Shown: positions 1-20,053 of the stretch, piece after piece
Position numbering within the stretch: the first letter of the stretch is position 1
How the letters are laid out: every line of letters begins with the position of its first letter
Source: Affinundibacterium fentianense
GTDB lineage: Bacteria; Pseudomonadota; Gammaproteobacteria; Burkholderiales; Burkholderiaceae_D
Assembly (NCBI RefSeq): GCF_018139545.1
Contig: NZ_JAGSPJ010000003.1
Coordinates: 248,001 to 312,000, forward strand
Direction: 5' to 3'
DNA length: 64,000 bases
Notes under the pieces: generated by a model
The model's database searches: none
What the model was told of the DNA's origin: nothing
Seen by the model: the letters and a program-made list of their open reading frames with translations, nothing else
Program-made: the position numbers and the translations under genes

Positions 1-1384
1 TCAAATTGGTGGCAGGGTTGCTACGATCTAAGGCTCCCATTGAAAATTGCGTGATTTTCGAGAGTCCGCTCGTTGGTATCCAAGACGTTAATGCCATCGA
101 ATTGATACAGATGACAGTCAAGAGATAAACCAACGCTAGGGAAATGAATGCGAACAGCCATGGAACGCCAAAGAAATGATGGCTTGCCCAAACACCCAAT
201 AGACTAAAAATCGGGATTCCCCAGTAAGAGATCCAAAGCGGAACCTCGATGTGAGCTAGCACGTCGCGGTGTTGATCACTCGCTTCGTTGCGTTTGAGTA
301 GACGCGTGAGTCCTTTAAATATGTCAGGTTTGGCAAATAGGCTGATCAGCGCTGCGACAACCATGATGACGATGCCCCACCATAATGACCATTGATTGAG
401 AATTTCTATTCGTGAAAGCGGCACAAGTTTGCCATCGAGTCCCATCCTTGGTGCAATTTCGCCACGTTGTATCATCCAAGGCCCTAAGATCGCAAAATTG
501 AGTAGTGCGCCAATCAAACAACTTGTTGCGACCCGAATACCCATTAGCGCACCAACCCCAAGCATGGCCGCATCGAGGGTGAATCGTAAACCTAAAGTGC
601 GAAAGTCCACACCCAGTATTTTGGGTATCCACCAATCGAATTTGACTGCCGCTAGATAGTAATACGTGTCGAGTCGTTCTTTTAAGTACCAAGGTTCTGA
701 CCAACTGGCCCATTGATCCAGTCGCAAAATTTTGAACTGCAGAAGTTTCATCCAACCGTCGCTGAGCACGATTTGTAAGGCTGCAGTCCAAAGCCCGACT
801 TTGGCTAAGAGTTTAGCTTTAAAAATGCCGCTGGCTGCGTCACCGTTATACAGCGTGTCGAGGACGACGCCGCAAGCATTTCCTTCTGGGAATGGTAATT
901 GATCTTCATTGATGAAGCGACGTTTGAGAGGGAAGGCGAGAAGTACGCCTAGAATCGCGATAATGACCATCCAGATCAGCATGTGCCACCATTCTGGAAT
1001 ACGCTTGGTGATCATCATGTAGGCGGGGAGACATGCGACCAAAGGCATGGTCATATAGCCAGCCGATGTGGCGATGGATTGGGTGCAGTTGTTTTCTAAA
1101 ATCGTAAAATTTTTGGCGAGACCAAGGTTTTCAAAAGCTTTGAATAAGCCGAACGCTAAAATTACCGAGATTAAATTGACACCAATCGAAATACCTGTTT
1201 TTGCGCCAATGTACATGGCTGTTGAGGACAGGATGCCTCCCAGCAAAAAACCTGTGATGCCAGAGCGCCAACTTAATTGCGCCATATTGCCTTGATAGAT
1301 ATGGTCGAGCCACCATTGGTCTTTTTGTTGTCGCGACCAATGCTTCACCTGCTCCTCGTTGAGCTGCACAATTGCCACGGTCAT
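1..1384 (-). CDS. OPT-family oligopeptide/metal-chelate transporter, C-terminus cut by window edge
   Basis: The minus-strand frame starts at the ATG at 1384-1382 and stays open to the window edge, so about 461 codons are visible and the C-terminus is missing. The product is a polytopic inner-membrane protein. After a short soluble N-terminus (MTVAIVQLNEEQ) it has a glycine/serine-rich first membrane segment, a loop with LPFPEGNACG near residues 158-170, and many later hydrophobic segments. The FPEG-A loop and overall pattern are those of the OPT/YSL transporter family, which imports oligopeptides or metal chelates with protons. The substrate cannot be read from the sequence. The next gene on the same strand lies upstream (stop at 1488) with a 103-bp gap, so co-transcription is possible. 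The short ORFs on both strands in this stretch are shadows. Confidence 0.8.
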   Translation of the reverse strand, partial: MTVAIVQLNEEQVKHWSRQQKDQWWLDHIYQGNMAQLSWRSGITGFLLGGILSSTAMYIGAKTGISIGVNLISVILAFGLFKAFENLGLAKNFTILENNCTQSIATSAGYMTMPLVACLPAYMMITKRIPEWWHMLIWMVIIAILGVLLAFPLKRRFINEDQLPFPEGNACGVVLDTLYNGDAASGIFKAKLLAKVGLWTAALQIVLSDGWMKLLQFKILRLDQWASWSEPWYLKERLDTYYYLAAVKFDWWIPKILGVDFRTLGLRFTLDAAMLGVGALMGIRVATSCLIGALLNFAILGPWMIQRGEIAPRMGLDGKLVPLSRIEILNQWSLWWGIVIMVVAALISLFAKPDIFKGLTRLLKRNEASDQHRDVLAHIEVPLWISYWGIPIFSLLGVWASHHFFGVPWLFAFISLALVYLLTVICINSMALTSWIPTSGLSKITQFSMGALDRSNPATNL

Positions 1385-1487: not shown

Positions 1488-4400
1488 TCATTGAAATTGT
1501 TGTTTCAGTGCCGCATTGACTTGTTCAAGCACATCTTCCCAATCGGCGACTCGCGTTTGTCGGAACAGACGCACGCTAGGATACCAAGGACTATCATCGC
1601 GCTCTAGCATCCAGCGCCAGTCTGGGGTGCTTGCCAATAAAATCCAAGTGGGTTTGCCGAGTGCCGCGGCGAGATGCGCGACGCTCGTATCGACCGTTAT
1701 GATGAGATCCATTTGCTCACACAGAGCCGCTGTCTCTTCAAAATCATGCATTTGTTCGGGAAACCAGTGCAGTCTTGGCGTGTTTTCTAAGGTGACAAGA
1801 TCTTCAGGACGGACTTCTTTCTGTAAGCAAAAGTAATCGACATCCTCAGACAAATGCGGTACCAGACTTGCGAGTGGGAGACTACGTTGGCGATCATTGC
1901 TGTGCTGTGGATTGCCACTCCAAACCAAGCCGATTCTGTGCCGTACTTTTGTTCCTAATTGCGTCGCTAACAGGGATTGCCAACGTGTGCGCACCGTCGG
2001 TTCTACGGTCAAATAGTGTGGATTCGCGGGGATGGTTTGCAACGAGGTGTTCAACGCCAAAGGCAAGGACAGCAATGCGCAGTGATAATCAAATTCGGGG
2101 ATGACATCGCCAGTACTAATGACGCGGTCAATGCCTGATAGACGGTGCAAAAATCGCTTGAGTGGAGCTTGCGCCAAGAGAACCACTTTGGCCCCCCGAT
2201 TTGCGAGTACTTGCACGTAACGGCTAAATTGTATCGTGTCACCTAAGCCTTGTTCAGCATAAAGTAGTATGGTTTTACCTTGTAAGCTTTGCTGACCACT
2301 CCAAGCAGGCTGATCAAACCGTAAGCTACGCATATCCTCACGTTGCCAACGCGCTTCGTAGAGTGGCCATGCAGCTTGCAAATCGCCATTTAATAGCAAA
2401 GCGTTTGCCTTATTAAAACGCGCTGTGGTCAAATTCGGTGCAATGCTCAAGGCGCGATCATAATGCATCATTGCTTGTTCGAATTCTCGCAAGTCGACTA
2501 ATATGTTGGCGACATTCACCCAATTCTCGGCACTACTATTGTGTAGTTCTAATGCGCGTTGATAATCTGCTAGTGCTAATTTGAATTCGCCTTGGTCTCT
2601 GAAAGCTTGTGCGCGCAAAGTATACGCTTGCGCGCAACTAGGATCTTGCTGCAGGATCGCGTTGAGTTCGTGGATGACATCGGATGATAGGCGCAATTCG
2701 CGCGCGAATACGACACGGAGAAGACGCGCTTCAAGATTGTGCGGGTCGTGAGATAAAACTTGCTCAATCTGTTGTTTCCCAAGTTCCCATTGTTTGCTAC
2801 TACGGTAGCATTTAGCGAGATAAATCAAAGCTGGAAGATACGCTGGCTTTGCCGCGATGGCGCTTTGCAGTGTTGCGATTGCTTCGGTAGGTCGATTGAG
2901 CGCGAGTAAGACTTGTCCACGTTCCGCGAGGGCTTCGATATAGTCAGGTTTGTGTTGCAAGGCTAAATTCAGGCTATCTAAGGCTTCCGCAAAACGCCCT
3001 AAGGTCGATAGACTCTGTGCCTGACGCAGTCGTGCACTGACTAAATTTGCTTGGGATCGAAGAACGATGTCAAGACTTTGCAGCGCGGCCTCATGCTGGT
3101 TCATTTCAGCCAAACACAGTGCCCGATTCATATGCGCCCCGGCATGGTCTGGCTTTTGTTGCAGTGCCTGTTCAATCAGCGATAAAGCGGCCGCAAAATC
3201 ACCGATCTGGGATAGCAAATTCGCCAGTAAATTAAGGCATTCAAAATGCTGCGGCTGTGCAAGCAAAATCTGTTCGTACGCTGTTCGTGCTTGATCGAGA
3301 TGTCCGGCCTGATGTAAAGCCACGGCTTTTTTAAGCGCCAAATTAGTCGCCGTCGTCACTGCTTGCGCTGAGGCTTTTGCTGGCGCTTTTTCTGCGTGTT
3401 GTTGCTTAGCTGCTGGAAGTGGTGCAGCGAGCCCTAGCGCGGATTGTTGTAGCGCGGATAGATCTTGAGCGACCTGCGTCAATAGGGGTTGCCATTGGTA
3501 GTCAGCAGATTGACGATAAAGTTTAACGGATTCATACCATGGGCTATCTGATCGATCTAATAGCCAGCGCCAATCCGGTGTATGTGCGAGCAAAATCCAG
3601 GTCGTTTTGCCCATTGCTGCGCTGAGGTGCGCAACACTGGTATCGACTGAGATGACTAAATCCATACAAGCAATCAATGCGGCTGTATCGATGAAATCGC
3701 GTAGCTGTTCGCCGAAATGACGCAGCTTAGACTGTTGCGACATAGTCGTTGAATCATCCCCGCGTAATTCTTTTTGTAAACTGATGTACTCAAAACCATC
3801 GGGCAAAGATGCGATTAAATCGCACAATGGAAGACTGCGATTGTGATCATTTTTGTGAATTGGATTGCCGCTCCAGACGACGCCTATCCTAGGCTTTTGT
3901 TGGGGGCCAAGGCGTGTTTTCCAAGCTTGAACCAAAGCCGGCTTTGCATGGAGATAAGCTTGACTTAATGGGATAGTTTGCAAAGTCGTTTTGAACGCCA
4001 GGGGCAAGCTCAATAGTGGGCAATGTAGGTCAAACGGAGGCAATGGATTGCCATTGGCAACGATGTGATCAATCCACGGCAAATCTTTCAGAAGCCTGAC
4101 GACGGCATGTTGAACATCAAGAATCACCTTTGCGCCAGCCTGTTTCGCCAACAGTGCATAGCGGCAGAATTGTATGGTATCCCCGAGTCCTTGTTCGCTA
4201 TGCAGTAAGATGGTTTTTCCATGCAAGTCCGTCTCGCCTAGCCAGAGCGCTTGCGTGAATTGTCGCGGGGGCGTAGCCTCACGATGCCAGCGCCATTCAT
4301 AATTCTTCCAGCCGTTTTCATAGTCACCTACGAGACGCTGCATCATCGATAAATTGTAGTGCGCAAGCGGGTAGTCCGGCAAAATCGAGATCGCGCGCTG

Positions 4401-7400
4401 AAAGCTGGCGTCTGCCTTGGCAAACTCATGCATATCCATGTAGGTGTTGCCTAGGTTCGAATAGATCTCTGGAACATTGGGTTTGATTTGTAAGGCCGTT
4501 TCAAAATCGCGTATCGCCTGTGGGAAATTTCGCAATACTTTGTGCACGTTTCCGCGATTTGAAAATGCATCTGAAAAGTCTGGTTTCAGTTCAATTGCTC
4601 GGCTGTAAAATGCTATCGCTTCCTCGTAGCGCTTGAGTCCATTCAGTGCAATACCGCGTTCAGACAGGGCTTCTGGGAAGTTGGGGCGAAGCTTTAAAGT
4701 CAGATCAACGCATTCAAGCGCTTCTTCAAATCTGCCCAATTCGCGCAATATTCCTGCTTTTCTGAGATACGCATTCGCATAATCTGGCTTGAGGCGAATC
4801 GCAATATTGATGCTGTCTAATGCCTCGGTTAATTGTTTGCCCTCATGCAGACAAATTGCACGATTCAATTGGGTGTGCGGATGCTGGGGATTAATTGCAA
4901 CCGCGCGGCTGACCAACTCAATCGCTCGTTCGTGATGTTCTAACTGTGTACATAATCCAGCCAGCAAATTTAAGGCTTCAAAATGCTTGGGGTCGCGCGC
5001 GATGATTTCTTCGTAAATGGCACCAGCTTCGGCAAATTGTTGTGCTTGATGGAAGCGAATTGCCTGTTTTAAACGCGCCGCAGTGGCAGCGGGTGCAATG
5101 GCATTTTTATCTCGACCAGGTTTATCTCGACCAACTTGCGCCTTTTTCACCTGCTTCTCGGCCTTTGCAGGCAATTGGGGATAGTCAGAACGCAAATCGC
5201 TGGCAACTTTTTGTAAAACTGAATCCCACGTGCGGTCGTTTTGCTGGCGATATAAATGCATGCTCGCATACCAAGGACTATCGTCGCGATCGAGTTGCCA
5301 GCGCCAATCAGGATTGAACGGCAGTAATACCTTCGTTGGTATACCGATTGCGCCAGACAAATGGGCAACGCTGGTGTCGACCGAGATAATTTGATCCATA
5401 CAGACGCACAAGGCTGCGGTCTCGCTCAAATCCTGCAATTCATCGCCGAAGTGACGAATCAATGATTGCCCTTGAAATGCGGCCAAGTCCTCTGGGCGTA
5501 TTTCTTTTTGCAGGCTAATGTAATCGTATTCGGTCGGAAGTTGTTTCAATAGTTCTGTGAGACGAAGACTGCGATTATGATCGTTTTTATGGGCAGGATT
5601 GCCGCTCCAAACAAGACCGATGCGAGGTCGTGTCTTGATGCCGAGTTTGTTTTGCCAGAATTTTGATCGCTTCGTTGGCGCCTTTAAATAGGCATTTGGA
5701 TAGGGTATCGAATCCAGCGTGGTCTTGAATGCCAATGGCAAAGACAAGAGTGGATAGTGCAAATCAAAATGGGGTAAGGCCGTCCCCTTCGATATGACCT
5801 GCTTGATTCCTGGCAAATCTTGAAATAGGCTCACAAGAGAACTCGGTACTTCGAGTAGTATTTGAGCGCCTTGCTTCGCGAGCAAATGGATGTAACGGCT
5901 AAACTGAATCATATCGCCAAGGCCTTGTTCGCCATACAGTAATAGGATTTTTCCTTGTAAGGATTCCGTACCTGTCCATGCAGGCTGTGTGAATACTCTC
6001 GCCTGTGCCCCGGTTTTTTTCCAGCGTGATTCATGTAATTGCCAACCTAATTCGTAGTCACCAAGGAGGCGCAAGATGAACGAGCGGTTGTAGAGCGCAT
6101 CGGCGTGATCAGGCTGGATCAAAAGTACCTCGTCGATACATTGTAGGGCTTCGTCAAAGCGACGTAGATCTTGCAAGATCGCGCTTTTCCTTAACATCGC
6201 CGAAATCCTTTGCGGCGCGATCGTTAGGGATTGCGTAATCGTTGAAAGCGCTTCCTCCCATCGTCCTGCCTCATGTAAGCAGATCGCCTTTAGCAATAAA
6301 GTTGGTGCATGGTGCGGCTTTAGCAGGCACGCGCGCTCCAGAAAACTCAGTGCGACATCGAACTCGCGTTCTTCAGTCAACAAGCTAGCGATTAAGTTGA
6401 GTGCGTCAAATTGATTTGGCTCACTCTGCAAAATATCTTGGTAGCATGTCTTTGCCGCATCACGCTTACCTTGTTTTTGAAGATGTATTGCTTGTTGCAG
6501 ACGTTCTTGAACTGTTGAATTTGCTGTGCCTGTCTGATTTTGCCTCAGATCGCGCTGATCGCCCGAAGGATTCGCTGTTCCTAATGTCGATGCAAGGCTT
6601 TTAAAAACTTGTTGAAAAACTGGGGGCCAGGTGTGATCAATACTTTGACGGAATAGACTGACAGAGTCATACCATGGGCTATCGGTGCGCTCGAGTAACC
6701 AACGCCAGTCGGGTGTATAGGCGAGCAAAATAGAAGTTGGCCTGCCGAGTGCCGCACTCAAATGCGCGACGCTTGTATCGACGGTCACAACCGCATCGAC
6801 TAAACAACATAAGGCTGCGGTGTCAGCAAAGTCCTTGATATCGTCGCCCAAGAAAAGAATCTCAGAACGGTCGAGCGCAGCGCGATCCGATTCGCGAATT
6901 TCTTTCTGCAAACAGATATAGTCAAATTGTGGTGGAAGGTGAGGAATTAAATCCGCAAGTTGCGCGCTACGTCGCCTATCATTCTTATGTACTGTTCCGC
7001 CACTCCATACCAAGCCGATACGTGGCTTTTGCTTGGTGCCCATGCGACCTGACCAAGATTCGATTTTAGAAGGATTTGCTTTTAAATAAGGCTGCTTGCT
7101 TGGGAACTGATCTGGCAGGCTTTGTAAAGCAAACGGAATCGATAGCAAAGGACATTGGAAATCAAACTCTGGAAGCGGTTCGCCAACGACGACGAGTTGA
7201 TCGACCCCCTCAACATCTTGCAAGATTGACGCAAGTGGCGGTTGGACCTCAAGTATGACAAAAGCACCCAATGCTTTGACCATTTTTGCATAAGCACAAA
7301 ATTGGATGGTATCCCCAAGGCCTTGTTCAAAATGTAGCAATACGCGTTGACCGCGGATGGATTCTTTCCCAGTCCAACGTGGGTGCTCATGATGGCGTTG

Positions 7401-10400
7401 TTTTTGGTCATTGGTTTTCCAGCGCCATTCATATAATTCCCATGCTTCGGCAAATCGTCCTGCTTGCAACAACGCGATAGACTTATTCCAATAGGCTTGT
7501 GCATTGCTGGGTTTTAAAGTGATCGCGCGATCAAAGCTGGCGATGGAGGCGTCGATTCGTTTGAGTTCGCGCAAAATATTGCCACGATTCGAATAGGCCT
7601 CTGAAAAATCTGGATCGAGCTCTAACGCCCGGTTTACACTGGCTAGTGCCGCATCAAGTTGATTGGATTCACGCAAGGCGGTTGCACGATTTGAAAAAGC
7701 GCCAGCGTAGCCTGGTCTTAATCGAATTGCTTGATCAAAGCTAGTGAGTGCTTCCGGCAAGCGACGCAGTTCGGTCAGTGCGACGCCACGATTTGAATAG
7801 GCTTCAGGATAGTTCGCTTGAATCTGCAAGGCTTGATCAAAACTCGCCAGTGCTGCGTCAAATTCTTTATTGTCGAGTTGGCTAATGCCTCGGTTTAATA
7901 GCACATCCGGTTTGTTGGGAACAAGACGCAATGCTTGATTGTAGCTAGCAATTGCCTCTGGAAATCTTCTTAAATTTCGCAAGGTGATACCGCGATTCGC
8001 ATAGGCATCCGCGAAATTGCTTTGCAAAGCAATCGCACGGTCAAAACTGGCGAGTGCAGCAGTGAATTGCTGGAGCTTATCGAGTGCGATGCCACGGTTC
8101 GAATACGCGACAGCGTGCTCAGGATGGATGCTAATTGCATGATCGAGTAACTTCACTGCAAGGGGATAATCTTGTTTTTGCGCTGCGATTGTTCCGAGTA
8201 AAGTGAGGGATTCGACATGGCGTGGATTTTCGCACAGGATCGCTTCATAGATCTGCTTCGCGCGCTCAAGCTGTCCAGCTTGATGAAGTTGAAGTGCCGT
8301 GTCGAATTGTTTTTTGAGTTGAGCTTGATGCATACTTAAATCATTAGGCGATGGGGGCTTCATAGGCGTCATATCGTGTGCAAGTTGCTGCTGCAGCTGT
8401 TGCAAGCAAGACGTCCATTGATTGAATTCTGTCTGTCGAAACAAGCGAAGACTCGGATACCAAGGGCTCGTTGCGCCATTCTGCAGCCAACGCCAGTCCG
8501 GCACAAAAGGAAGCAGAACATAGCAAGGCTTACCGATCGCGCCAGCGAGGTGGGCGACACTGGTATCAACGCTGACAATCAGATCCATATACGAACAGAG
8601 TGCCGCCGTGTCGGCAAAATCGTGGAGCTGCTCGGTGAAATGGAGAATCTCAGGATGATCGTCAAGGCAGCTGCGGTCCTCTGCACGTATGTCTTTTTGC
8701 AAGAGAACGATGCGAACATGATCGCTTTGTAGCGGCAAGTAAGGCAGCAAATCACGTAAGGCAATACTGCGATGCCCATCGTTTTGATGTTGCGCATTGC
8801 CACTGCAGACTAGTCCAATCCAGCGGGTGTTGGGCGCGCTATTTAACTTGCGCTGAAGTTGCTGGAGCCGATCACGCCAGATTTCGCGTAATGCAGGGTC
8901 TGGGCTTAAATAGTTGACCTCTGCTGGAATAGTCGATAAACGCGTACCGAATAATCGAGGTAAGGACAACAAGGCGCAATACAGAGCATAGTCGGGGCGT
9001 ACTTCGCCTGGTTTGAGCAAATGAATGGTGTCACCACACCCTTTGAGGGTTTGCAATAAGCGATGCAAATTGGCGGGCGCTTCAAAAATAACTTTTGCAC
9101 CGCGTTCGACCAATAGTGGCAAGTAACGACAAAATTGTAGACTGTCTCCCAAACCTTGCTCGGCATAGACAAGAAAGATTTGGCCGGTCAGTGATTCTTC
9201 GCCGTCCCAAGCTCGCGCATGCGGCAGCGCTTGAAATTGTGGCTGGCTCGGTGGCAATTGCTGGAGACGTGACTCATAGAGATCCCAAGCTGGCGCAAAA
9301 TCACCTTGAAGTAAATAGGCGATACCAAGATTGAGTTTTGCCAATTCAAAATGTGGGGCTATGGTGATGCACGCTTGATAATCGCGGATTGCCGCATCGA
9401 GCTGCCCAAGTTCCTTATAGGCTATGGCGCGATTGTAATGGGCTAGTGCATAAGCATTTTGGCGTGCAATAGCAGAGTCTAGGTCAAGGATCGCCTCATT
9501 GAACTGATTTAAACTCATACGAGCCGTCGCTCGGTTGAGATAAGCCTCGGCTTGTCCATCATCCAGACTAATGGATGTGGTCAAATGGTCGATTGCTCGT
9601 ACCAGATCGCCGGCTTGCTGCAATGCGGTCCCTAAATTAAACTGCGATTTAGCGTCCTTAGGCGCCAGTTCGCAGGCCTCGTAAAAGCAGTGAATCGCTG
9701 CCGCAAAATCGTGCTGTGCAAGCTTCACTGCACCTTGTCCATTGATCGCATTGAGTCGATCGAGGGGATCGGACGCCAGCGCGTAACAAATGTCAAAATC
9801 CTCAGACGATAGTGCGAATTGTCCCATGCTCAAGTAAGCATGTGCACGATTGTGGCGTGCTGCGAGATAGTGTGTATTGTGCTCAATCGCCTGCGAGTAA
9901 GATGCAATCGCTGCTTCGATCTGGCCAACTTTTTGCAGTACATTGCCCAGATTAAAGTGAGCTGGCTCGTCATCTGGATGGTGCGTCACCAATGTTTGGT
10001 AATGCATTAAAGCTTCATTCGTCTTTCCTAAGGCATTGTAGGCCACGGCGAGTTGAAACAAGGCATCGCGATGAGCGGGATCACGCGACAGTAATACTTG
10101 AAAATGTTCGATGGCTTGCAGGTAGTCTTGTTCTTGCATGCCTATCATGCCAAGTAGGTAGCGCGCGTTTGCCGCGACTTGATCGGTTTCGCTCTTAGTC
10201 GTAGGCGGCGCGTTGAGTAGCGTCTGATAGAGCAAGCGGGCTTCTGCTAATTGACCCGATTGATGTAACTGTTTTGCCTGCGCAAAGACTGTCGTCGCTG
10301 AGGACAGTTTAGCGCTGCTGAGATTGGCAGGCGGAGTTGGAAAAAACTCGCTGATGAGTGCAGATGCGACAGACTTGAATACCGTGCTCCAGTCGTTGGC

Positions 10401-12041
10401 GTTGGTTTGCCTGAACAGCCGCGCGGAAGCATACCAAGGGCTGTCGTCGCGTTCTAACATCCAACGCCAATCGGGGCGTTTTGCCAAGAGTATCCATGTG
10501 GGTTTGCCCAAAGCCGCACTGAGGTGGGCCACGCTCGTATCAACACTGATGACACAATCCAAGTTCGCGCAGAGTGCGGCAGTGTCGTTAAAGTCCACCA
10601 ATTCCTCGCCAAAGTGGAGGATGTCAGGGTGTGAATCCAAAACAGCCTGATCCTGCCGACGCACCTCTTTTTGTAAGCTCACATAAGTGAACTCCGGGGG
10701 TAAAAACGGTAAGAGTTGGCTGAGCATCAAACTGCGATGATGATCATTGGTGTGTTTGGGGTTGCCACACCAGACCAAACCTATCCTTGGCTTGGAGCGA
10801 GGACCTAGGCGAGATTCCCACTGCGCTTGTCGATCGGAATCCGCAAACAAATAGGGTTGTGCCGTCGGGATTGATTGTAAACTTGTAGCAAATGCATGCG
10901 GCAGCGACAACATCGCGCATTGCAAATCAAAGTCGGGGAGGGGGGAGCCCGCCGGAATAAACTGTATGGCATCCCCTGAATCTTGAAATTGCAGCGCTAA
11001 AAATGAGTGTAGTGGTGCTTGGACTTCACAGATGACGCGAGCGCCGCGAGCGGCCAAGAATGGGAGATAGCGACAAAATTGCAGGGTATCGCCCAAGCCC
11101 TGTTCCCAATAGACAAAAATTGTTTTTCCAGCGAGGTCGGCGTCTCCGTTCCACGCAGCTTGCGCAAAGTGGCGCCGTTGTTGGCGCAATTGACTGGTTT
11201 CCCAACGCGATTCATACAGCGGCCAAGCCTGTGCCAAATCACCACGTAGCAAGTAGACCAAGGATTGATTATGTCGTGCTGAATGCAATTGCGGATTGAG
11301 TTGGCGTGCTGTGTCAAAATCAGCTGATGCGAGATCAAATTGTTCTGCCTCAAAGTAGGCTGAACCGCGATTCAGATACGCCTCGGCATAGTCAGGACGC
11401 TGCTGTATTGCGACATGTAGACTCTCAATCGCTTCAGGGTAACGTTCTAATAACTTAAGGGTATTGCCGCGATTTGAGTAGGCGGCTGGATAGACCGCTT
11501 GTAAGCGTATTGCTTGTTCAAAATCTTCGAGTGCTTCGACATAACGCTTTCTATCTTTATGTAATACGCCGCGATTCAAATACAAGGGTGCGACATCCGG
11601 CCGTAATTCGATCGCATGATTCAAATCATCCAACGCCTCTTTCCAATGCCTTAATTCTCGTCGCGCATTGCCACGATTCGAGTAGGCTTCGACACGATGC
11701 GGTGTTAGTTTTAAGACCTGATCACAATCAGCAATCGCGAGCTCTAAAGCTTGGGTTTGTTTGTAAGCAATCGCACGACCTAAGAGATAAGCGCTGAATT
11801 GTTGGTCATCTTCCGACTGATCGCGCTGCGCAATGAGGTCGGAATACAAAGAAATTGCCAATGCATGATTCTTAAGTGCGACATGCACATTGGCGAGTTG
11901 ATACCGTGCTTCCCGATGATCAGGGTGTTCGCGCAATATGTCCTCGTAAAGGGTTCGCGCTTGTTGCCAATGTCGCCGCTGTTGTTCACGCTGACCTTGC
12001 GTCATTTTTTCAACGAGGTGGCGAGTGGAATTAGTCGGCAT
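1488..12041 (-). CDS. Giant six-unit TPR / GT9-like glycosyltransferase protein (about 3,517 aa)
   Basis: One uninterrupted frame holds six repeats of the same unit, a run of TPRs followed by a glycosyltransferase-like module. Each module opens with W-LYE-RW, then EQGLGD-(T/S/M)-(I/L)QF near residues 313, 959, 1571, 2038, 2617 and 3262. It continues through RIGLVWSGNP-H-ND-RS and (I/V)SVDTSVAHL, and ends with PDWRW near 521, 1179, 1776, 2243, 2822 and 3472, followed by SPWY-S--L-RQ. The order and motifs match stand-alone TPR proteins with a GT-B fold domain related to family 9 (heptosyltransferase-like), usually 500-800 aa long. TPR blocks between modules run from about 220 to 390 residues. 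The start at 12041 (MPTNSTRHLVEK) was chosen because TPR-type sequence begins soon after. An in-frame start at 12188 would add 49 residues with no clear role, and 12005 is another option. No signal peptide is evident, so it is probably cytoplasmic. By family analogy it may glycosylate proteins or surface glycans; the acceptor is unknown. Confidence 0.85.
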   Translation of the reverse strand: MPTNSTRHLVEKMTQGQREQQRRHWQQARTLYEDILREHPDHREARYQLANVHVALKNHALAISLYSDLIAQRDQSEDDQQFSAYLLGRAIAYKQTQALELAIADCDQVLKLTPHRVEAYSNRGNARRELRHWKEALDDLNHAIELRPDVAPLYLNRGVLHKDRKRYVEALEDFEQAIRLQAVYPAAYSNRGNTLKLLERYPEAIESLHVAIQQRPDYAEAYLNRGSAYFEAEQFDLASADFDTARQLNPQLHSARHNQSLVYLLRGDLAQAWPLYESRWETSQLRQQRRHFAQAAWNGDADLAGKTIFVYWEQGLGDTLQFCRYLPFLAARGARVICEVQAPLHSFLALQFQDSGDAIQFIPAGSPLPDFDLQCAMLSLPHAFATSLQSIPTAQPYLFADSDRQAQWESRLGPRSKPRIGLVWCGNPKHTNDHHRSLMLSQLLPFLPPEFTYVSLQKEVRRQDQAVLDSHPDILHFGEELVDFNDTAALCANLDCVISVDTSVAHLSAALGKPTWILLAKRPDWRWMLERDDSPWYASARLFRQTNANDWSTVFKSVASALISEFFPTPPANLSSAKLSSATTVFAQAKQLHQSGQLAEARLLYQTLLNAPPTTKSETDQVAANARYLLGMIGMQEQDYLQAIEHFQVLLSRDPAHRDALFQLAVAYNALGKTNEALMHYQTLVTHHPDDEPAHFNLGNVLQKVGQIEAAIASYSQAIEHNTHYLAARHNRAHAYLSMGQFALSSEDFDICYALASDPLDRLNAINGQGAVKLAQHDFAAAIHCFYEACELAPKDAKSQFNLGTALQQAGDLVRAIDHLTTSISLDDGQAEAYLNRATARMSLNQFNEAILDLDSAIARQNAYALAHYNRAIAYKELGQLDAAIRDYQACITIAPHFELAKLNLGIAYLLQGDFAPAWDLYESRLQQLPPSQPQFQALPHARAWDGEESLTGQIFLVYAEQGLGDSLQFCRYLPLLVERGAKVIFEAPANLHRLLQTLKGCGDTIHLLKPGEVRPDYALYCALLSLPRLFGTRLSTIPAEVNYLSPDPALREIWRDRLQQLQRKLNSAPNTRWIGLVCSGNAQHQNDGHRSIALRDLLPYLPLQSDHVRIVLLQKDIRAEDRSCLDDHPEILHFTEQLHDFADTAALCSYMDLIVSVDTSVAHLAGAIGKPCYVLLPFVPDWRWLQNGATSPWYPSLRLFRQTEFNQWTSCLQQLQQQLAHDMTPMKPPSPNDLSMHQAQLKKQFDTALQLHQAGQLERAKQIYEAILCENPRHVESLTLLGTIAAQKQDYPLAVKLLDHAISIHPEHAVAYSNRGIALDKLQQFTAALASFDRAIALQSNFADAYANRGITLRNLRRFPEAIASYNQALRLVPNKPDVLLNRGISQLDNKEFDAALASFDQALQIQANYPEAYSNRGVALTELRRLPEALTSFDQAIRLRPGYAGAFSNRATALRESNQLDAALASVNRALELDPDFSEAYSNRGNILRELKRIDASIASFDRAITLKPSNAQAYWNKSIALLQAGRFAEAWELYEWRWKTNDQKQRHHEHPRWTGKESIRGQRVLLHFEQGLGDTIQFCAYAKMVKALGAFVILEVQPPLASILQDVEGVDQLVVVGEPLPEFDFQCPLLSIPFALQSLPDQFPSKQPYLKANPSKIESWSGRMGTKQKPRIGLVWSGGTVHKNDRRRSAQLADLIPHLPPQFDYICLQKEIRESDRAALDRSEILFLGDDIKDFADTAALCCLVDAVVTVDTSVAHLSAALGRPTSILLAYTPDWRWLLERTDSPWYDSVSLFRQSIDHTWPPVFQQVFKSLASTLGTANPSGDQRDLRQNQTGTANSTVQERLQQAIHLQKQGKRDAAKTCYQDILQSEPNQFDALNLIASLLTEEREFDVALSFLERACLLKPHHAPTLLLKAICLHEAGRWEEALSTITQSLTIAPQRISAMLRKSAILQDLRRFDEALQCIDEVLLIQPDHADALYNRSFILRLLGDYELGWQLHESRWKKTGAQARVFTQPAWTGTESLQGKILLLYGEQGLGDMIQFSRYIHLLAKQGAQILLEVPSSLVSLFQDLPGIKQVISKGTALPHFDLHYPLLSLPLAFKTTLDSIPYPNAYLKAPTKRSKFWQNKLGIKTRPRIGLVWSGNPAHKNDHNRSLRLTELLKQLPTEYDYISLQKEIRPEDLAAFQGQSLIRHFGDELQDLSETAALCVCMDQIISVDTSVAHLSGAIGIPTKVLLPFNPDWRWQLDRDDSPWYASMHLYRQQNDRTWDSVLQKVASDLRSDYPQLPAKAEKQVKKAQVGRDKPGRDKNAIAPAATAARLKQAIRFHQAQQFAEAGAIYEEIIARDPKHFEALNLLAGLCTQLEHHERAIELVSRAVAINPQHPHTQLNRAICLHEGKQLTEALDSINIAIRLKPDYANAYLRKAGILRELGRFEEALECVDLTLKLRPNFPEALSERGIALNGLKRYEEAIAFYSRAIELKPDFSDAFSNRGNVHKVLRNFPQAIRDFETALQIKPNVPEIYSNLGNTYMDMHEFAKADASFQRAISILPDYPLAHYNLSMMQRLVGDYENGWKNYEWRWHREATPPRQFTQALWLGETDLHGKTILLHSEQGLGDTIQFCRYALLAKQAGAKVILDVQHAVVRLLKDLPWIDHIVANGNPLPPFDLHCPLLSLPLAFKTTLQTIPLSQAYLHAKPALVQAWKTRLGPQQKPRIGVVWSGNPIHKNDHNRSLPLCDLIASLPDGFEYISLQKELRGDDSTTMSQQSKLRHFGEQLRDFIDTAALIACMDLVISVDTSVAHLSAAMGKTTWILLAHTPDWRWLLDRSDSPWYESVKLYRQSADYQWQPLLTQVAQDLSALQQSALGLAAPLPAAKQQHAEKAPAKASAQAVTTATNLALKKAVALHQAGHLDQARTAYEQILLAQPQHFECLNLLANLLSQIGDFAAALSLIEQALQQKPDHAGAHMNRALCLAEMNQHEAALQSLDIVLRSQANLVSARLRQAQSLSTLGRFAEALDSLNLALQHKPDYIEALAERGQVLLALNRPTEAIATLQSAIAAKPAYLPALIYLAKCYRSSKQWELGKQQIEQVLSHDPHNLEARLLRVVFARELRLSSDVIHELNAILQQDPSCAQAYTLRAQAFRDQGEFKLALADYQRALELHNSSAENWVNVANILVDLREFEQAMMHYDRALSIAPNLTTARFNKANALLLNGDLQAAWPLYEARWQREDMRSLRFDQPAWSGQQSLQGKTILLYAEQGLGDTIQFSRYVQVLANRGAKVVLLAQAPLKRFLHRLSGIDRVISTGDVIPEFDYHCALLSLPLALNTSLQTIPANPHYLTVEPTVRTRWQSLLATQLGTKVRHRIGLVWSGNPQHSNDRQRSLPLASLVPHLSEDVDYFCLQKEVRPEDLVTLENTPRLHWFPEQMHDFEETAALCEQMDLIITVDTSVAHLAAALGKPTWILLASTPDWRWMLERDDSPWYPSVRLFRQTRVADWEDVLEQVNAALKQQFQ

Positions 12042-12310: not shown

Positions 12311-12350
12311 TTTCTATTTTGTGTGTAGTGTGTTGCTTATTTTCTTAAGC

Positions 12351-12410
12351 AGTTTCGAACTTAGTTTCTAACTTAGTTTCTAACTTAGTTTCGAACCTAG
12401 TTGCGAACTA
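12351..12410. repeat. Five tandem copies of a 12-bp unit in the groEL 3' region
   Basis: Five contiguous 12-mers of the form AGTTTC(G/T)AACTT start at 12351, 12363, 12375, 12387 and 12399. The last two carry one or two substitutions. Each unit is an imperfect palindrome (AGTT....AACT), so neighbouring units can also pair with one another in RNA. It lies between the groEL stop and its terminator. The remainder of 12042-12489 holds the terminator, a hairpin and no credible gene. Confidence 0.85.
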
Positions 12411-12489: not shown

Positions 12490-14178
<1,689 letters not shown>

Positions 14179-14347: not shown

Positions 14348-14638
14348 TTATTTTTGGACGATTGCGAAAATATCTTCTTCGCGCATAACCAATACTTCAT
14401 TGCCATCAACTTTGACAGCTTGACCAGAATATTTACCGAACAATACGCGGTCGCCTACTTTCACTTCCAAAGCACGCACTGTACCGTTGTCCAATACCTT
14501 GCCGTTACCGACAGCCAGTACTTCACCTTGATCTGGTTTCTCTGCTGCTGCGTCAGGCAAAACGATACCGGATGCTGTTTTTGTTTCTTGATCCAAACGT
14601 TTAACGATAATGCGATCGTGCAGGGGACGAAGATTCAT
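14348..14638 (-). CDS. groES: Co-chaperonin GroES (Hsp10)
   Basis: This 96-aa protein is the heptameric lid of the GroEL chamber. It begins [14 protein letters not shown], carries the mobile-loop region [14 protein letters not shown] near residues 17-30, and ends [10 protein letters not shown], all characteristic. The start at 14638 is fixed by the Shine-Dalgarno sequence AGGAG five bases upstream; the frame is open further upstream, but that extension has no family support. It is the first gene of groES-groEL. The CIRCE operator and heat-shock promoter lie about 210-265 bp upstream, so the transcript has a long leader. Confidence 0.98.
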
Positions 14639-14847
14639 ACTAACTCCTAAAAAAATTACAAAAGTAAAATTACCAAAGTAAATAAAATTGCAAAATAAAT
14701 GACTTAAACCTATCCAGCTTTGCTCGACTAAGTACGTCCAGCGCACTAAATAAGAGCAGAGCAAGTCTTTTCAAGTCCTATTTCGCCAGAAAAATCTTGC
14801 TAGAGGAAATTGCAAACAAGTCGATCAGGGATACTGAATCTGCATTG

Positions 14848-14903: not shown

Positions 14904-15017
14904 GAAGAAAGTGGAAAAAAGCAGTTTTATTTTAAAAATCATGGGCTTAGCTTAATTTTTTTGGAGCTGTGCGGGACTAAGCTGTACGCTAAAGGAGGCG
15001 TTTTTTTCGGCTTTGTC

Positions 15018-15992
15018 CTAGATTGTTAGGTTATCCATTGGACTCTTGACGCCAGCACCTCCAATTTTTAAGACGTGCGTATAGATCATGGTCGTACTCA
15101 CGTCTGCGTGACCCATAAGCTCTTGGACTGTTCGAATATCGTAACCTGATTGAAGCAAATGTGTCGCAAATGAATGTCGTAGAGTATGGGGTGAGGCGGG
15201 TTTATGAATCTGCGCAGCCTCCTTGGCTAGCTTAAAAGCGCGCTGAAACGTGCGGTCATAAAGATGATGGCGACGAATGACTTTGCTGCGTGGATCAACA
15301 GAGACAGTCGCTTGAGGAAATACCCAGTGCCACGCCCAAGTTTGGCCAGCAGATGGATATTTTCTTTCGAGCGCATAAGGCATTTCAACCCCAGACTGAT
15401 TGTTTGCGCGGTCTTTTGTCCAGAGTGTCTTGGAATGAATTAGCTGTGCCTTTATGTGTTCGATTAAGCTTAGCGGCAACATTAAAGCGCGATCTTTGTT
15501 CCCTTTACCAGCTCTTACAATGATGGTTTTATGAAGGAAGTCGATGTCTTTCACTCGTAGTTGTAGCGCCTCATTGATACGCATGCCGGTGCCATATAGA
15601 AGTTGCGCTAATAAAAGGTGTTCGCCAGATAAACGAGAAAAGATCGCCCGAACTTCATCAACCGACAGCACGACAGGCAAGCGCCGTGCAGTCTTTGGTT
15701 GGCCGATCTCTTTTAGCCAAGGTAAATCGATACAAAGAACCACTTTATACATAAATAAAATGGCAGAGAGCGCTTGACGATGAGTGGAAGGGGACACTTG
15801 CTTATGGTTTGCTAAATAGCTCAGGAAGGCCTCGACTTCTGGTGCTCCCATCTCGGTTGGGTGGCGCAACTTGTGAAATCGGATGAAATAGCGGCACCAA
15901 TACACATAGACTTTCTCAGTGCGCAAGCTGTAATGCTTATAGCGAATTGCTTCCTTGACACGATCAAGAAGCTTGGTAGAATGCAGCTCCAT
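15018..15992 (-). CDS. intI: Integron integrase IntI (tyrosine recombinase)
   Basis: This 324-aa site-specific recombinase inserts and excises gene cassettes at attI and attC. The N-terminal SAM-like domain ([16 protein letters not shown], about residues 14-29) and the core with [10 protein letters not shown] hold the first catalytic Arg. [13 protein letters not shown] (His and second Arg), a conserved Gly-His pair in LMGHADVS, and IYTHV with the nucleophile Tyr follow. The integron-specific insert is present before the C-terminal box (ERKYPSAG, then [12 protein letters not shown]), separating it from XerC/D. The start at 15992 (MELHSTK) was chosen because the earlier in-frame ATG at 16031 lies inside the LexA box. 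It is divergent from the cassettes, the usual integron layout. The frame is intact, so the enzyme may be active. Confidence 0.95.
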
Positions 15993-16023
15993 TGCAATGA
16001 CGCTTTCTGTAGAAATTTTAATA

Positions 16024-16039
16024 CTGTACAAATATACAG
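16024..16039. promoter_or_regulatory. LexA (SOS) box upstream of intI
   Basis: CTGT-N8-ACAG with matching TA flanks, centred about 40 bp upstream of the intI start codon. The 20-bp palindrome differs from the E. coli ideal (TACTGTATATATATACAGTA) at only two central positions. Integrase genes of many integrons are repressed by LexA, so cassette shuffling is expected to rise with DNA damage. Confidence 0.9.
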
Positions 16040-16079
16040 TATAACTCTGGAAAGCTAATGTACAAAAGACTTTGTAGAG

Positions 16080-16149
16080 GATCTATGAAAAGTATTATGC
16101 GACAAGTTGCTTTTTCGCCCGTCATTTCGCCGTCTATATCTAGTTAAGC
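16080..16149 (+). other. Probable attI recombination site
   Basis: This is the region between intI and the first cassette gene. GTTAAGC at 16143-16149 fits the core GTTRRRY where cassettes are joined, and the first cassette ORF begins 17 bp later. A stretch TCGCCCGTCATTTC at about 16114-16127 resembles the 3' arm of the attC near 19050-19063, so part of this region may be an old attC remnant. The left boundary is a guess. Confidence 0.55.
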
Positions 16150-16165
16150 ATCAAATGGTAACTAA

Positions 16166-16612
16166 ATGGAATTCGTAGAATCTTGTAGATCAATTAGTCC
16201 AATAGACTTGATCGAAGTAGAAAATAAAATTGGTTATCAACTGCCGGAAGAGTATAAATTATTCCTGCTAAGCCATAATGGTGGCCGACCTGTTCTAGAT
16301 GGTGTGCGCCATGAAAATGAGCACTTTGATTATGTTGGTTATTTCTATGCAATACGTGGAGAAATGTACCACGATGATTTGGTTCGCCAAATTGGTGAGC
16401 ACAAAGATATGATTCCGGAAGGTTACTTACCAATAGGTGAAAGTCCTGGCGGAGACATTTATTGCATATCGTTAAAAGAGCCAACAAAGGGTTCTATATT
16501 TCACTGGGACCACGAAGAAGCTAACTACGATGGTGAGCCGTGGGAATATAACATGACCAAATTGGCTCCATCACTTACAGCTTTTTTAGAGGGGCTGTGT
16601 ATCGGCGAGTAA
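16166..16612 (+). CDS. Cassette 1: SMI1/KNR4 (SUKH) family protein, immunity-like
   Basis: A 148-aa cytoplasmic protein. The N-terminal half has the SUKH pattern: an I-x2-VE-x2-IG-x2-LP-x2-YK-x-FLL stretch at about residues 13-34, then an NGG-P turn, with a WD/HW region later. SUKH proteins are common antitoxin/immunity proteins against contact-dependent or polymorphic toxins. No toxin gene is adjacent, which suits an orphan immunity gene carried as a cassette. It lies directly after attI, the position closest to any Pc-type promoter, and ends five bases before attC1. Confidence 0.75.
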   Translation: MEFVESCRSISPIDLIEVENKIGYQLPEEYKLFLLSHNGGRPVLDGVRHENEHFDYVGYFYAIRGEMYHDDLVRQIGEHKDMIPEGYLPIGESPGGDIYCISLKEPTKGSIFHWDHEEANYDGEPWEYNMTKLAPSLTAFLEGLCIGE

Positions 16613-16615
16613 AAT

Positions 16616-16726
16616 GCTTAACAAATCAATCAAACTGATGGTTTTTAAGTCGCCATTTTGCGCATGGCTTCGCCATTATTGCGCAAACAGTCAACTTAAA
16701 AACCACAGTTTATCTCAGCGTTAGGC
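16616..16726 (+). other. attC site 1
   Basis: Left core GCTTAAC (16616-16622, RYYYAAC) and right core GTTAGGC (16720-16726, GTTRRRY). They enclose long complementary arms, for example TGGTTTTTAAGT near 16640 against ACTTAAAAACCA near 16694, and an inner GCGCA/TGCGC hairpin. It is the longest attC of the array (111 bp). Confidence 0.9.
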
Positions 16727-16731
16727 GAAAT

Positions 16732-17160
16732 ATGATCCAGCTATTACTTATTCCCGGTGCATCAGTTGGTTCAATTTCAATCGGAATGTCACGTGAGTCT
16801 GTTTACGAAACGACAGGCGAACCTGATTCAACTTTTTTGAAGTCACGTTCCTCAACGAACCCAGTTGAGGTTTACAATTTGTTTGGTTTGCATGTGTATT
16901 ACAGTTCAAATGGGTGCGTTGAATTCATTGAATGCTTTAAAACAAATGAAACTCAGCTCATGCTAGGAGGGACGACATCGGTTTTTGATACAGATGCAAA
17001 CTCCCTAATATCAACTTTCACGGAGGCTCTTACTCTGATAGAAGAAGAGCCTGGGAGTTGTTATATTTCCAAAGTACATGGAATTTCTTTATGGCGGCCT
17101 ACTGATGAAGAAAGATATTTTCAAGCCATTGGCATTGCAAATGGCGCCTACTTTGCGTAA
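16732..17160 (+). CDS. Cassette 2: uncharacterised 142-aa protein
   Basis: No family was recognised. The start at 16732 lies five bases after the attC1 core, typical of cassette genes. The first 30 residues (IPGASVGSISIGMSRESV, then GEP) resemble the short 'GMSxxEVxxxxGEP' module seen in several small bacterial proteins, including some immunity-like ones. No signal peptide or membrane segment is seen, so it is probably cytosolic. It ends five bases before attC2. Confidence 0.7.
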   Translation: MIQLLLIPGASVGSISIGMSRESVYETTGEPDSTFLKSRSSTNPVEVYNLFGLHVYYSSNGCVEFIECFKTNETQLMLGGTTSVFDTDANSLISTFTEALTLIEEEPGSCYISKVHGISLWRPTDEERYFQAIGIANGAYFA

Positions 17161-17165
17161 CTATC

Positions 17166-17243
17166 GCCTAACCAGTCATTCAAGTTCGCTACACTTCGTT
17201 CCGCCGGACGCGCTGACGCGCGCCGCTTAATTCCGCGTTAGAT
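17166..17243 (+). other. attC site 2
   Basis: Cores GCCTAAC (17166-17172) and GTTAGAT (17237-17243) match both consensus sequences exactly. Between them GCGCGTCAGCGCG-type arms form a hairpin. Confidence 0.92.
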
Positions 17244-17248
17244 TCTTC

Positions 17249-17836
17249 ATGCTCACACAAACAGACTTGGTGGCATCCATTGGTGCATACGAGAAAGAGA
17301 TTCAAGAGGCGCTTCGTATCGCCAAGACCCTCACTCTGCCCGAGCCAATAACGTTATCTTTTCGACTTTCCAATTTAACAGTAACGGAAATTGAAAGATT
17401 GGCTGCAGCCCTTCCTAGCGGGCATCGGAAGGAGGACAAGGATGCGGAATACATATATGTATTTACGTTGGCCGATTCCAGTGCAGATTTACTGGAAGAA
17501 ATGCTTTCTGCTTTCGATGAGGCTCGTGAATTTCAAGACACAGATGAATACGATGGAAAAAAGAATCTGTGCAAACCAAACGCAATCTCAGAGGCAACGC
17601 GTGCAATTTATGTAGGACGCTCATACAGACCACGCGATCGACTAAAGCAGCATCTGTCAGAAAGCAGCTCTGGGACATATGCAATTCACTTTGCCATGTG
17701 GGCATCTGAGCTGAAGGTTGATGTGAAATTTAGTCTTTACAGATTCGCCGGGCTTGGTAACCGTGTTATTCAAGTGTTGGAGGATGGTTTGTGGGACAAC
17801 CTGCAACCACTTTTAGGTAAACGAGGAGAAAAATGA
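17249..17836 (+). CDS. Cassette 3: GIY-YIG-like nuclease-fold protein
   Basis: A 195-aa protein. Its second half carries IYVGRS (residues 120-125), then R-R-KQHL, a TYAIHF-W segment, and near the end a Glu in LEDGLW followed by PLLGKRG. These are the YIG, Arg/His and metal-binding Glu positions of GIY-YIG domains. The GIY-like strand may be YIYVFTL near residue 68, about 50 residues before YVG, which implies an insertion compared with classical members. Residues 1-60 are helical and unassigned. It could be a DNA nuclease or an inactive relative. It is a cassette gene between attC2 and attC3. Confidence 0.6.
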   Translation: MLTQTDLVASIGAYEKEIQEALRIAKTLTLPEPITLSFRLSNLTVTEIERLAAALPSGHRKEDKDAEYIYVFTLADSSADLLEEMLSAFDEAREFQDTDEYDGKKNLCKPNAISEATRAIYVGRSYRPRDRLKQHLSESSSGTYAIHFAMWASELKVDVKFSLYRFAGLGNRVIQVLEDGLWDNLQPLLGKRGEK

Positions 17837-17903
17837 ATCTAACTATTCATTCCGCCGGACCTGCGCGAAAAGCCGCGCAGACCGGTGAATTCAAACGTTA
17901 TAT
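17837..17903 (+). other. attC site 3
   Basis: Left core ATCTAAC (17837-17843) directly follows the stop codon; right core GTTATAT (17897-17903). Inner arms CTGCGCG/CGCGCAG and TTCCGCCGG/CCGGTGAA form the fold. Confidence 0.88.
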
Positions 17904-17909
17904 GCCAAG

Positions 17910-18254
17910 ATGAAAACACACCCTATTCAAAACAGCGACGGCACTTTGAGAGGCTTTGAAATTTCAAGTACTTGGGTTTTATTTTGGCCACTGTTAAAAG
18001 TTCTGAAATCTGTTGAGGGTGTGTCTGAAGTCAAACGGCAATGGTTTAACGAAGATCGAGTAATATTTAAGTACTTTAACGTTCCCGCAGTTATTAACGA
18101 GCCTTGGGGGGACAACAGTAGATATTGGGTTGGCTTACAAGAACCTGATGTCCATCCCAGCATTGATATCTCGCCGTTAAGGCTGGCTTTTGAAAACTAC
18201 TCGGGCTTTACAATTTTTTATCTAACTAAAAAGGTGCCAAGTAATGGCATATAA
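17910..18254 (+). CDS. Cassette 4: uncharacterised 114-aa protein
   Basis: No named family was recognised. A compact alpha/beta-looking protein without signal peptide; FEISSTWVLFWPLLKVL near residue 16 looks like a buried helix. The best landmark is the stretch NEPWGDNSRYWVG (about residues 63-75) followed by SIDISPLRLAF. The start follows attC3 by six bases, and the stop codon overlaps the left core of attC4, the usual tight cassette packing. Confidence 0.7.
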   Translation: MKTHPIQNSDGTLRGFEISSTWVLFWPLLKVLKSVEGVSEVKRQWFNEDRVIFKYFNVPAVINEPWGDNSRYWVGLQEPDVHPSIDISPLRLAFENYSGFTIFYLTKKVPSNGI

Positions 18255-18335
18255 CAAGCCGCTCAAATCGCTTCCTTCGGTCGCTCGGACTTTGCTACGC
18301 TACGCTTCGCAAAGCCTTTTAGCTCGGCGTTACGA
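18249..18335 (+). other. attC site 4
   Basis: Left core ATATAAC (18249-18255) overlaps the stop codon; right core GTTACGA (18329-18335), one base off consensus. Inner arms GCTTCC..GGTCGC and GCTACGCTACGC allow a stem. Confidence 0.8.
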
Positions 18336-18347
18336 GTCAGTACGCGT

Positions 18348-18623
18348 ATGAGAAAAGAATTAGTCGAAATACTGTCTGATGCGTCGAATAATGCGGTGCT
18401 CAGACACCCGAATAGGAGTTTTCCAGGATCGCTGATTCAGGGCGACTCTTTACATGCGCTAATTTGTGACGTGGACGAAGCCAAGCGTGAACTGAATTTG
18501 AAAAATTTTGAAGAAGTGTCAGAAATTTTGGGCGGCATTTCGGAAGCTTTACATGAGCGCATGAGGGTCTATAAAGCGGCATTGAAGGAGAACAGCATTG
18601 CTCTACCATTTAACGACTCATAA
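18348..18623 (+). CDS. Cassette 5: uncharacterised 91-aa protein (DUF6959-like)
   Basis: A small acidic helical protein. The N-terminal half (NNAVLRHPNRSFPG-LIQGD-L) resembles a family of short bacterial proteins I recall as DUF6959, of unknown function. The C-terminal half is a predicted helix bundle. No signal peptide or membrane segment. Cassette gene between attC4 and attC5; the family name is tentative. Confidence 0.65.
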   Translation: MRKELVEILSDASNNAVLRHPNRSFPGSLIQGDSLHALICDVDEAKRELNLKNFEEVSEILGGISEALHERMRVYKAALKENSIALPFNDS

Positions 18624-18671
18624 CACGGCGCTCGACGCCCACGCGCTGCGTGGGTCAGCTTGGCGTTGTGC
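18618..18671 (+). other. attC site 5
   Basis: Short site (54 bp) with left core TCATAAC overlapping the stop codon and right core GTTGTGC (18665-18671). The centre ACGCGCTGCGTG is a tight hairpin, with CGGCGCT..AGCTTGGCG arms. Confidence 0.75.
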
Positions 18672-18711
18672 ACCAAACCAATAACTAACACTTAATTATT
18701 TGGAGGGTAAA

Positions 18712-19017
18712 ATGAGTTTTTTAAAAAAAATTTTCGGTTTTGCTTTTTATGTACTCATGGGGTATATCTGGATTAATTGGTCCTGGTCTAATCAAGATAA
18801 GTGGTGGGGTACTCCAGTAATATGGTTTTTCATTTTTATGTGGTTCATCGGATTCCCATGGCTTTGGTGGGAAGAGGGTAAGGAAAAGAGGGCATTTAAT
18901 CGAGAACAACGAGAATATAAAAAATGTAATTGGTGCAATAAGCAATTTCAATGGATTGATTCGGGGTCTCGTTACCACTGCTGTCAACGCTGCGAAATAG
19001 AGAGTTCCAAGCGTTAG
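18712..19017 (+). CDS. Cassette 6: membrane protein with C-terminal zinc-ribbon
   Basis: A 101-aa protein of unknown function. Two hydrophobic segments (about residues 8-24 and 33-51) are rich in Trp and Phe. A charged linker and a C-terminal CxxC...CxxC pair (KCNWCNKQF and CCQRC) follow and would bind one zinc ion. The start at 18712 has GGAGG seven bases upstream; an in-frame TTG at 18700 lies inside that ribosome site and was rejected. Inner membrane location is inferred. Confidence 0.75.
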   Translation: MSFLKKIFGFAFYVLMGYIWINWSWSNQDKWWGTPVIWFFIFMWFIGFPWLWWEEGKEKRAFNREQREYKKCNWCNKQFQWIDSGSRYHCCQRCEIESSKR

Positions 19018-19024
19018 AGGACAT

Positions 19025-19078
19025 GCACAACTCAACAATCGACTCGGACGTTTTGCGCCCGTCATTTCTACGTTAGAT
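19025..19078 (+). other. attC site 6 (left core uncertain)
   Basis: The right core GTTAGAT (19072-19078) is exact. The left core is less clear; GCACAAC (19025-19031) and ACTCAAC (19030-19036) both fit RYYYAAC loosely. The arms CGGACG and CGCCCGTC give a partial stem. Confidence 0.65.
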
Positions 19079-19083
19079 TGCTC

Positions 19084-19473: not shown

Positions 19474-19557
19474 CAGGATAGTCGACCAGACTGGCCATAG
19501 TCTGGTTCAGTATGTTGTTAATTTGTGTGTGGCCATCCGCTCACTGTTGCGTTATAT
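19468..19557 (+). other. attC site 7
   Basis: Left core GCCTAAC (19468-19474), exact, overlaps the stop codon; right core GTTATAT (19551-19557). The inner arms CCAGACT and AGTCTGG near 19486-19503 form a strong hairpin. Confidence 0.88.
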
Positions 19558-19575
19558 CTAAAGGAGTAAACCAAA

Positions 19576-20039: not shown

Positions 20040-20053
20040 TTCAATGAATCCAA

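Follow-up and report, generated by a model that had tools for sequence, protein, structure and literature searches.

Is the chain of six TPR-glycosyltransferase (TPR-GT) units predicted from the 64,000-nucleotide stretch of Affinundibacterium fentianense DNA analysed here (the window) a genuine protein, and if so, what could a bacterium do with it? The answers given below proceed from the gene itself to its relatives, its predicted fold and its candidate substrates.

Six units in one minus-strand frame

The gene runs on the minus strand from an ATG at 12041 to a stop at 1488 and encodes 3517 amino acids (Table 1); a plus-strand gene was ruled out, the plus reading of the same coordinates being full of stops. 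The open frame extends upstream to a TTG at 12188 with in-frame ATGs between, and the start codon is uncertain, ATG 12041 being preferred. The motif EQGLGD starts at residues 313, 961, 1572, 2038, 2616 and 3263, and further blocks ([ST]VDTSVAHL, DWRW, SPWY and H.ND..RS) are present in six copies each in the same frame, a sixfold repetition that is far beyond chance. Each of the six units passes the six-motif check, the shared blocks align across the GT domains, and 12 positions are invariant across 42 aligned units (the six of the window among them), all of which are also in the list of positions invariant among the six GT domains. The pairwise identity of these domains is 41-52% (that is, they are 48-59% different), with unit 2 being the most diverged. 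Every GT domain is preceded by a TPR array of its own, for which 7, 7, 9, 5, 7 and 10 profile hits were obtained in units 1-6; units 3, 4 and 6 supplied the repeats for the profile, and the counts for units 1, 2 and 5 are probably lower bounds. In the structure models, unit 6 has 10 TPRs, unit 3 has 9, and unit 4, with the shortest TPR arm, has 5.

The longest exact DNA repeat within the gene is 17 bp and the best inexact repeat family, of 209 nt, reaches 64-71% identity. Because the longest exact repeat is so short, collapse of the assembly is unlikely, and with modules so well diverged an assembly artefact appears improbable from the sequence. The preliminary description had listed six EQGLGD...VDTSVAHL...DWRW/SPWY units in one frame (its strand unstated), each behind its own TPR array, clearly different from one another and not produced by misassembly; these claims stood up to the analysis, and the units look intact, with the checked motifs kept in all six and a high-scoring model of unit 6 (see below). 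The protein is real and intact-looking, and is the extreme of a tandem series inside a known architecture.

Table 1. Coordinates of the six-unit gene, its units, the flanking genes and giant RTX frames of the same genome (window positions unless a contig is named)
Feature	Positions	Strand	Remarks
OPT transporter, N-terminal part	2..1384	-	Conserved downstream flank; whole gene L020:13390-15384
Whole six-unit TPR-GT gene	1488..12041	-	3517 aa
Unit 1	10296..12041	-	TPR array, 7 profile hits; GT domain 10296-11195
Unit 2	8322..10295	-	TPR array, 7 profile hits; GT domain 8322-9251
Unit 3	6534..8321	-	9 TPRs; GT domain 6534-7418
Unit 4	5133..6533	-	5 TPRs; GT domain 5133-6020
Unit 5	3399..5132	-	TPR array, 7 profile hits; GT domain 3399-4286
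Unit 6	1491..3398	-	10 TPRs; GT domain 1491-2345
groEL	12490..14136	-	Conserved upstream flank
groES	14348..14764	-	
RTX frame	G000:C45 551884-558246		2988 codons
RTX frame	G000:C45 612831-621809		3817 codons
RTX frame	G000:C62 23768-28063		1847 codons

Relatives, genomic site and history of the units

The GT profile matched 94 of 200 genomes of the order at 1e-20 and 72 of 398 genomes of the phylum at 1e-60 (window genome included in both), which bears out the view that single-unit relatives are common. At 1e-50, a combined TPR+GT profile matched 47 of 48 genomes belonging to the order of one rich genome (window genome excluded), and a single-protein query that included the TPRs matched 45 of 60 relatives at E up to 0.001, some of these matches being TPR-only. 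Unit counts refer to the fetched loci among the matches listed, and genomes overlap between searches; the genus listing is complete. On the fetched loci there are 23 distinct two-unit complete frames, three three-unit frames (L009 and L010, both from Verrucomicrobia MAGs, and L139) and one four-unit frame (L137), so that the search for other proteins with three or more units suggested by the preliminary description was successful. The tandem TPR-GT architecture is not unique to the window gene; six is the largest number of units among the fetched loci, where the other proteins, single frames with tandem units of the same kind, have at most four. Adjacent but separate TPR-GT genes were found at four loci (L015, L073, L074 and L141).

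At 1e-15, matches occur in 30 of the 43 genomes of the genus. With 12 units the window genome is the richest, the next having 5; the 42 other genomes hold 0 to 5, none of them with a frame of more than two units. Six separate genes in a close relative, the arrangement by which the preliminary description would have been refuted, were not seen. Seven of the 43 genomes, namely the window genome and six congeners, retain a two-unit gene. In a 94-row tree its first units and its second units each form a separate starred clade, so this two-unit fusion is old and has been kept. None of the open-licence PMC papers listed deals with multi-unit TPR-glycosyltransferases, which is a weak negative.

Two observations were made alongside these counts. 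In two genomes from the order of G393 (G281 and G340), every one of the 27 candidates scored reached 1e-50 with the TPR-GT profile, and the true number of TPR-GT genes may be higher, the first-look candidates numbering 185 and 172. A locus from a Polaromonas MAG (L012 10001-12899) contains at least two units; the frame of its first GT appears to be broken, and the contig ends within the gene.

The host is a betaproteobacterium: its 16S has Cupriavidus metallidurans (91.5%) as nearest match among the records of a plasmid collection, and its GroEL shares about 80% identity with those of Neisseria and Burkholderia. The six-unit gene is located between groESL and an OPT transporter gene. Seven congeners were fetched at the OPT gene, of which one (L106) was left out, groEL lying beyond its stretch; in all six with both flanks on the fetched stretch there is no TPR-GT match between groEL and OPT. 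The spacing between the groEL and OPT matches in these six is 345 to 1250 bases, and the longer gaps contain other sequence. The G+C content of the gene (49.4%) is near that of the window (46.7%) and of the downstream flank (48.8%); composition therefore gives no sign of a foreign source. A phage origin was considered and set aside: two phage records match the unit 6 GT domain, neither of them reaching 60% identity; 90 plasmid records match unit 6 at 1e-30, all of them under 60% identity as well. Among the 20 neighbours scanned there is no flagellin, RTX, glycosyltransferase or recognised LPS gene, the sole nucleotide-sugar-like neighbour being an epimerase-family gene past the OPT gene. Rfam gave no match on window positions 1-40000 at gathering scores.

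Several other features of this region were recorded. Between groEL and the six-unit gene there is an imperfect 12-bp tandem repeat of about five copies (12336-12409), followed by what by eye is a terminator-like stem. A tyrosine recombinase gene (Phage_integrase with SAM_4; 15018-16031) adjoins groESL and is followed by many small plus-strand genes (about 16100-32100); this combination suggests a chromosomal integron carrying an array of cassettes. Of the GTTRRRY sites at 15000-33500, 8 of 21 lie at most 25 bases ahead of a listed ORF start, a count that has no chance control. A stretch of about 570 nt occurs three times, in diverged copies, at 21078-25068 in the putative cassette region, as blocks of 177, 76 and 300 nt with 75-94% identity to the first copy. 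An integrase lies near groESL in five of the seven fetched congeners, in one of these only partly.

Two histories of the array are possible: (i) tandem duplication of one unit, as the preliminary description had suggested, or (ii) fusion of units that had already diverged. Both have to be considered because a 38-row tree joins unit 3 to L039 (96/84), a single-unit protein from a different family; units 1, 2 and 6 group together in the same tree (89/80). A single clade of the six units was neither rejected nor shown by AU tests: with 94 rows the constraint gave p 0.761, and the constrained tree beat the quick free tree by 28.6 log units; with 38 rows p was 0.20 and the constrained tree was 19.6 worse. 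The preliminary description had called the array old, which holds for the modules; the presence of the array at this site is recent or sporadic, being missing in the six congeners checked.

Predicted fold and known glycosyltransferases

Pfam models on the window protein comprise TPR families and Glyco_transf_9 (heptosyltransferase), the latter with 117.8 bits against a cut-off of 22 over four stretches, the best of which covers positions 173-226 of 247 in the C-terminal part of the profile; at 1e-5 this model is found in only two of five paralogues. Glyco_transf_41 is not in the complete 1e-5 Pfam lists of these five paralogues, nor among 25 of the 28 Pfam families listed for the window protein. 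The NCBIfam equivalog of heptosyltransferase I was not reached (unit 6, 30.0 bits versus 185.3), and the sole NCBIfam model over its cut-off in seven proteins was TPR_END_plus, in two of them (units 6 and 2). No solved chain was matched in a PDB sequence search with E up to 1. Because the Glyco_transf_9 match is partial and extends to two of the five paralogues, and no PDB chain matched by sequence, catalysis is treated here as a prediction.

Unit 6, modelled with 42 alignment rows from the window and the other fetched loci, gave a mean pLDDT of 95.5 and a pTM of 0.88. The model consists of 20 helices forming 10 TPR hairpins, followed by alternating strands and helices, a C-terminal fold that we read as a probable GT-B fold from this secondary structure together with the Foldseek matches. 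For a query comprising the TPR+GT chain, the best PDB matches were SPINDLY (7y4i, E 4.6e-17) and O-GlcNAc transferase (1w3b, 7yea), both of them enzymes that glycosylate proteins and contain TPRs; the TPR part carries much of the match, and the whole-chain TM is low, about 0.2-0.5. A joint model of units 3 and 4 (pLDDT 88.1) has a low pTM of 0.54 and a disordered linker (residues 582-601 of the two-unit model, pLDDT under 50); the relative placement of the two units is therefore not confidently predicted. In this model, a disordered linker fits an arrangement like beads on a string.

Three known systems resemble the window protein in part. O-GlcNAc transferase and SPINDLY (GT41) have a single catalytic domain per chain, and share with unit 6 a TPR superhelix followed by GT-B, but the Glyco_transf_41 model was not seen for the five paralogues and the whole-chain superposition is poor. 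TPR arrays are not part of the classic GT9 heptosyltransferases, with which the window protein shares the Glyco_transf_9 match over cut-off; its strongest stretch, however, falls in the C-terminal part of the profile, and the heptosyltransferase I equivalog lies out of reach. TibC, of the TibC/BAHT autotransporter heptosyltransferases, glycosylates proteins (PMC4358343). FlmG of Caulobacter crescentus is described as a cytoplasmic protein with one TPR domain, which binds flagellins, and one GT-B domain, using pseudaminic acid made by NeuB (PMC7591256). The unit 6 model has the same order of an N-terminal TPR domain and a C-terminal GT-B-like domain, and some relatives of the window gene adjoin flagellin genes; in contrast, FlmG has one unit and the window protein six, and FlmG needs NeuB-made pseudaminic acid, whereas NeuB (PF03102, 1e-20) was not found in the 99.4% complete window genome. 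In its anatomy the window protein appears FlmG-like, but it is not filed as FlmG because the donor pathway is missing. PF03102 is present in 7 of the 43 genus genomes.

Candidate substrates and proposed function

We explored the genomic company of 41 TPR-GT genes that are flanked by 2 kb or more in both directions, on loci chosen partly for long frames. Flagellin is encoded within 5 kb of five of these genes (at four loci, three of which also have FliD), and three of the five are two-unit genes; the other 36 have no flagellin within 5 kb, in flanks that are often shorter than this distance. A further TPR-GT gene lies beside flagellin at L056, where the flank is shorter. Among 89 neighbour proteins, Pfam identified 3 flagellins and 2 GT41 proteins, the rest being mixed (25 commonest of 167 families); the best Glyco_transf_41 match of these two had E 3.2e-84. 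Some relatives adjoin flagellin or RTX/type I secretion genes, and most do not.

The flagellin of the window genome (L109 8288-10711) is 807 aa long, and its residues 282-710 hold five tandem repeats, each of roughly 77-90 aa. It is the longest among the 40 genus genomes with a FliC-class frame (3 of the 43 have none), the others being of 342-626 aa, some perhaps cut by contig ends, and its repeat profile matched none of the 25 other congener flagellins examined. The longest flagellin and the most GT units of the genus occur in the same genome, the window's, which makes this link a single case. Across the genus, flagellin length and unit number show a weak rank correlation (0.40, p 0.011, n=40, relatedness not corrected), which is 0.38 (p 0.019, n=37) once the window genome is left out together with two frames shorter than 400 aa. 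The middle of the 807-aa flagellin has the highest Ser+Thr count of 26 (153); because its Ser+Thr fraction (0.27) is not above that of the congeners (0.24-0.37), the claim of flagellin as a substrate is tempered.

We consider it fairly probable that the protein is a cytoplasmic protein O-glycosyltransferase array, FlmG-like with another donor; this donor would not be the pseudaminic acid of FlmG because NeuB was not found. Each TPR arm would bind an exported surface protein before it leaves the cytoplasm, and the GT-B-like domain that follows the arm would glycosylate Ser/Thr with a soluble nucleotide-sugar as donor, in the manner of FlmG on flagellin. With six such arm and putative catalytic units on flexible linkers, one chain could modify many sites, on one repetitive substrate or on several. 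The likeliest substrate would be the 807-aa flagellin, with the giant RTX proteins as second choice; a cytoplasmic enzyme could presumably reach either of them first because both exit the cytoplasm in one step. The preliminary description had proposed a processive or multi-substrate machine, of which the processive part found no support; parallel modification of many sites or of several substrates is as likely. On sequence grounds, the role as a whole is plausible.

The substrates might instead be the giant RTX type I-secreted proteins, with the six units working along the repeats of one adhesin, a reading that we hold to be somewhat unlikely. In its favor, the window genome has RTX open frames of 3817, 2988, 1847 and 1797 codons, a paralogue on contig C62 lies directly behind a Calx-beta/RTX/DUF4214 gene, the two-unit gene of L147 lies behind an RTX frame, and on plasmids of Azospirillum B510 and TSA2s the TPR-GT gene is found between a gene for a giant calcium-binding protein and the HlyD/ABC genes of a T1SS. 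However, under a strict rule (four or more GGxGxD), an RTX frame lies within 5 kb of just 1 of the 41 TPR-GT genes, and the giant frames are on contigs other than that of the six-unit gene; the gene's own contig carries a 1292-codon RTX frame some 246 kb away. That the units act on lipopolysaccharide or another glycan as GT9-type enzymes, with the TPRs as mere scaffold, would agree with the Pfam score of Glyco_transf_9 but sits poorly with the low NCBIfam heptosyltransferase I score and with the scanned neighbourhood, in which no LPS gene was recognised; we consider it very unlikely.

Two other alternatives concern the division of labor among the units. If these differed in donor or acceptor, they could build one oligosaccharide stepwise on a protein, and the divergence of the GT domains, the varying lengths of the TPR arms and the possibly separate origin of unit 3 are consistent with such an assembly line; given that the same conserved motif set is present in all six, suggesting like chemistry, and that no data point to different donors, this seems unlikely. 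We give similarly little credence to a largely neutral fusion, through unequal crossing-over or read-through, in which one or two units do the work: separate TPR-GT genes that lie side by side could fuse, and the six-unit gene is absent from all other genus genomes searched, but the motifs are kept in all six units at 41-52% identity in an open frame of 3517 codons, and the two-unit gene is retained in the window genome and six congeners.

Under the preferred reading, a cytoplasmic O-glycosyltransferase array, the six-headed glycosyltransferase and the five-repeat flagellin, both of which occur in one genome of the genus only, might have expanded together, such that repeated units serve a repeated substrate; we regard this co-expansion as a speculative idea of low probability. 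Soluble TPR-type bacterial O-glycosyltransferases are little characterised, and the chains of one, two, three, four and six units are a natural series for the study of substrate choice by TPR arms and of the number of heads in relation to the number of modified sites. They may also provide a biotechnology scaffold for multi-site glycosylation. If the co-expansion is true, with glycosylation working repeat to repeat, the number of modified sites would be set by a new principle.
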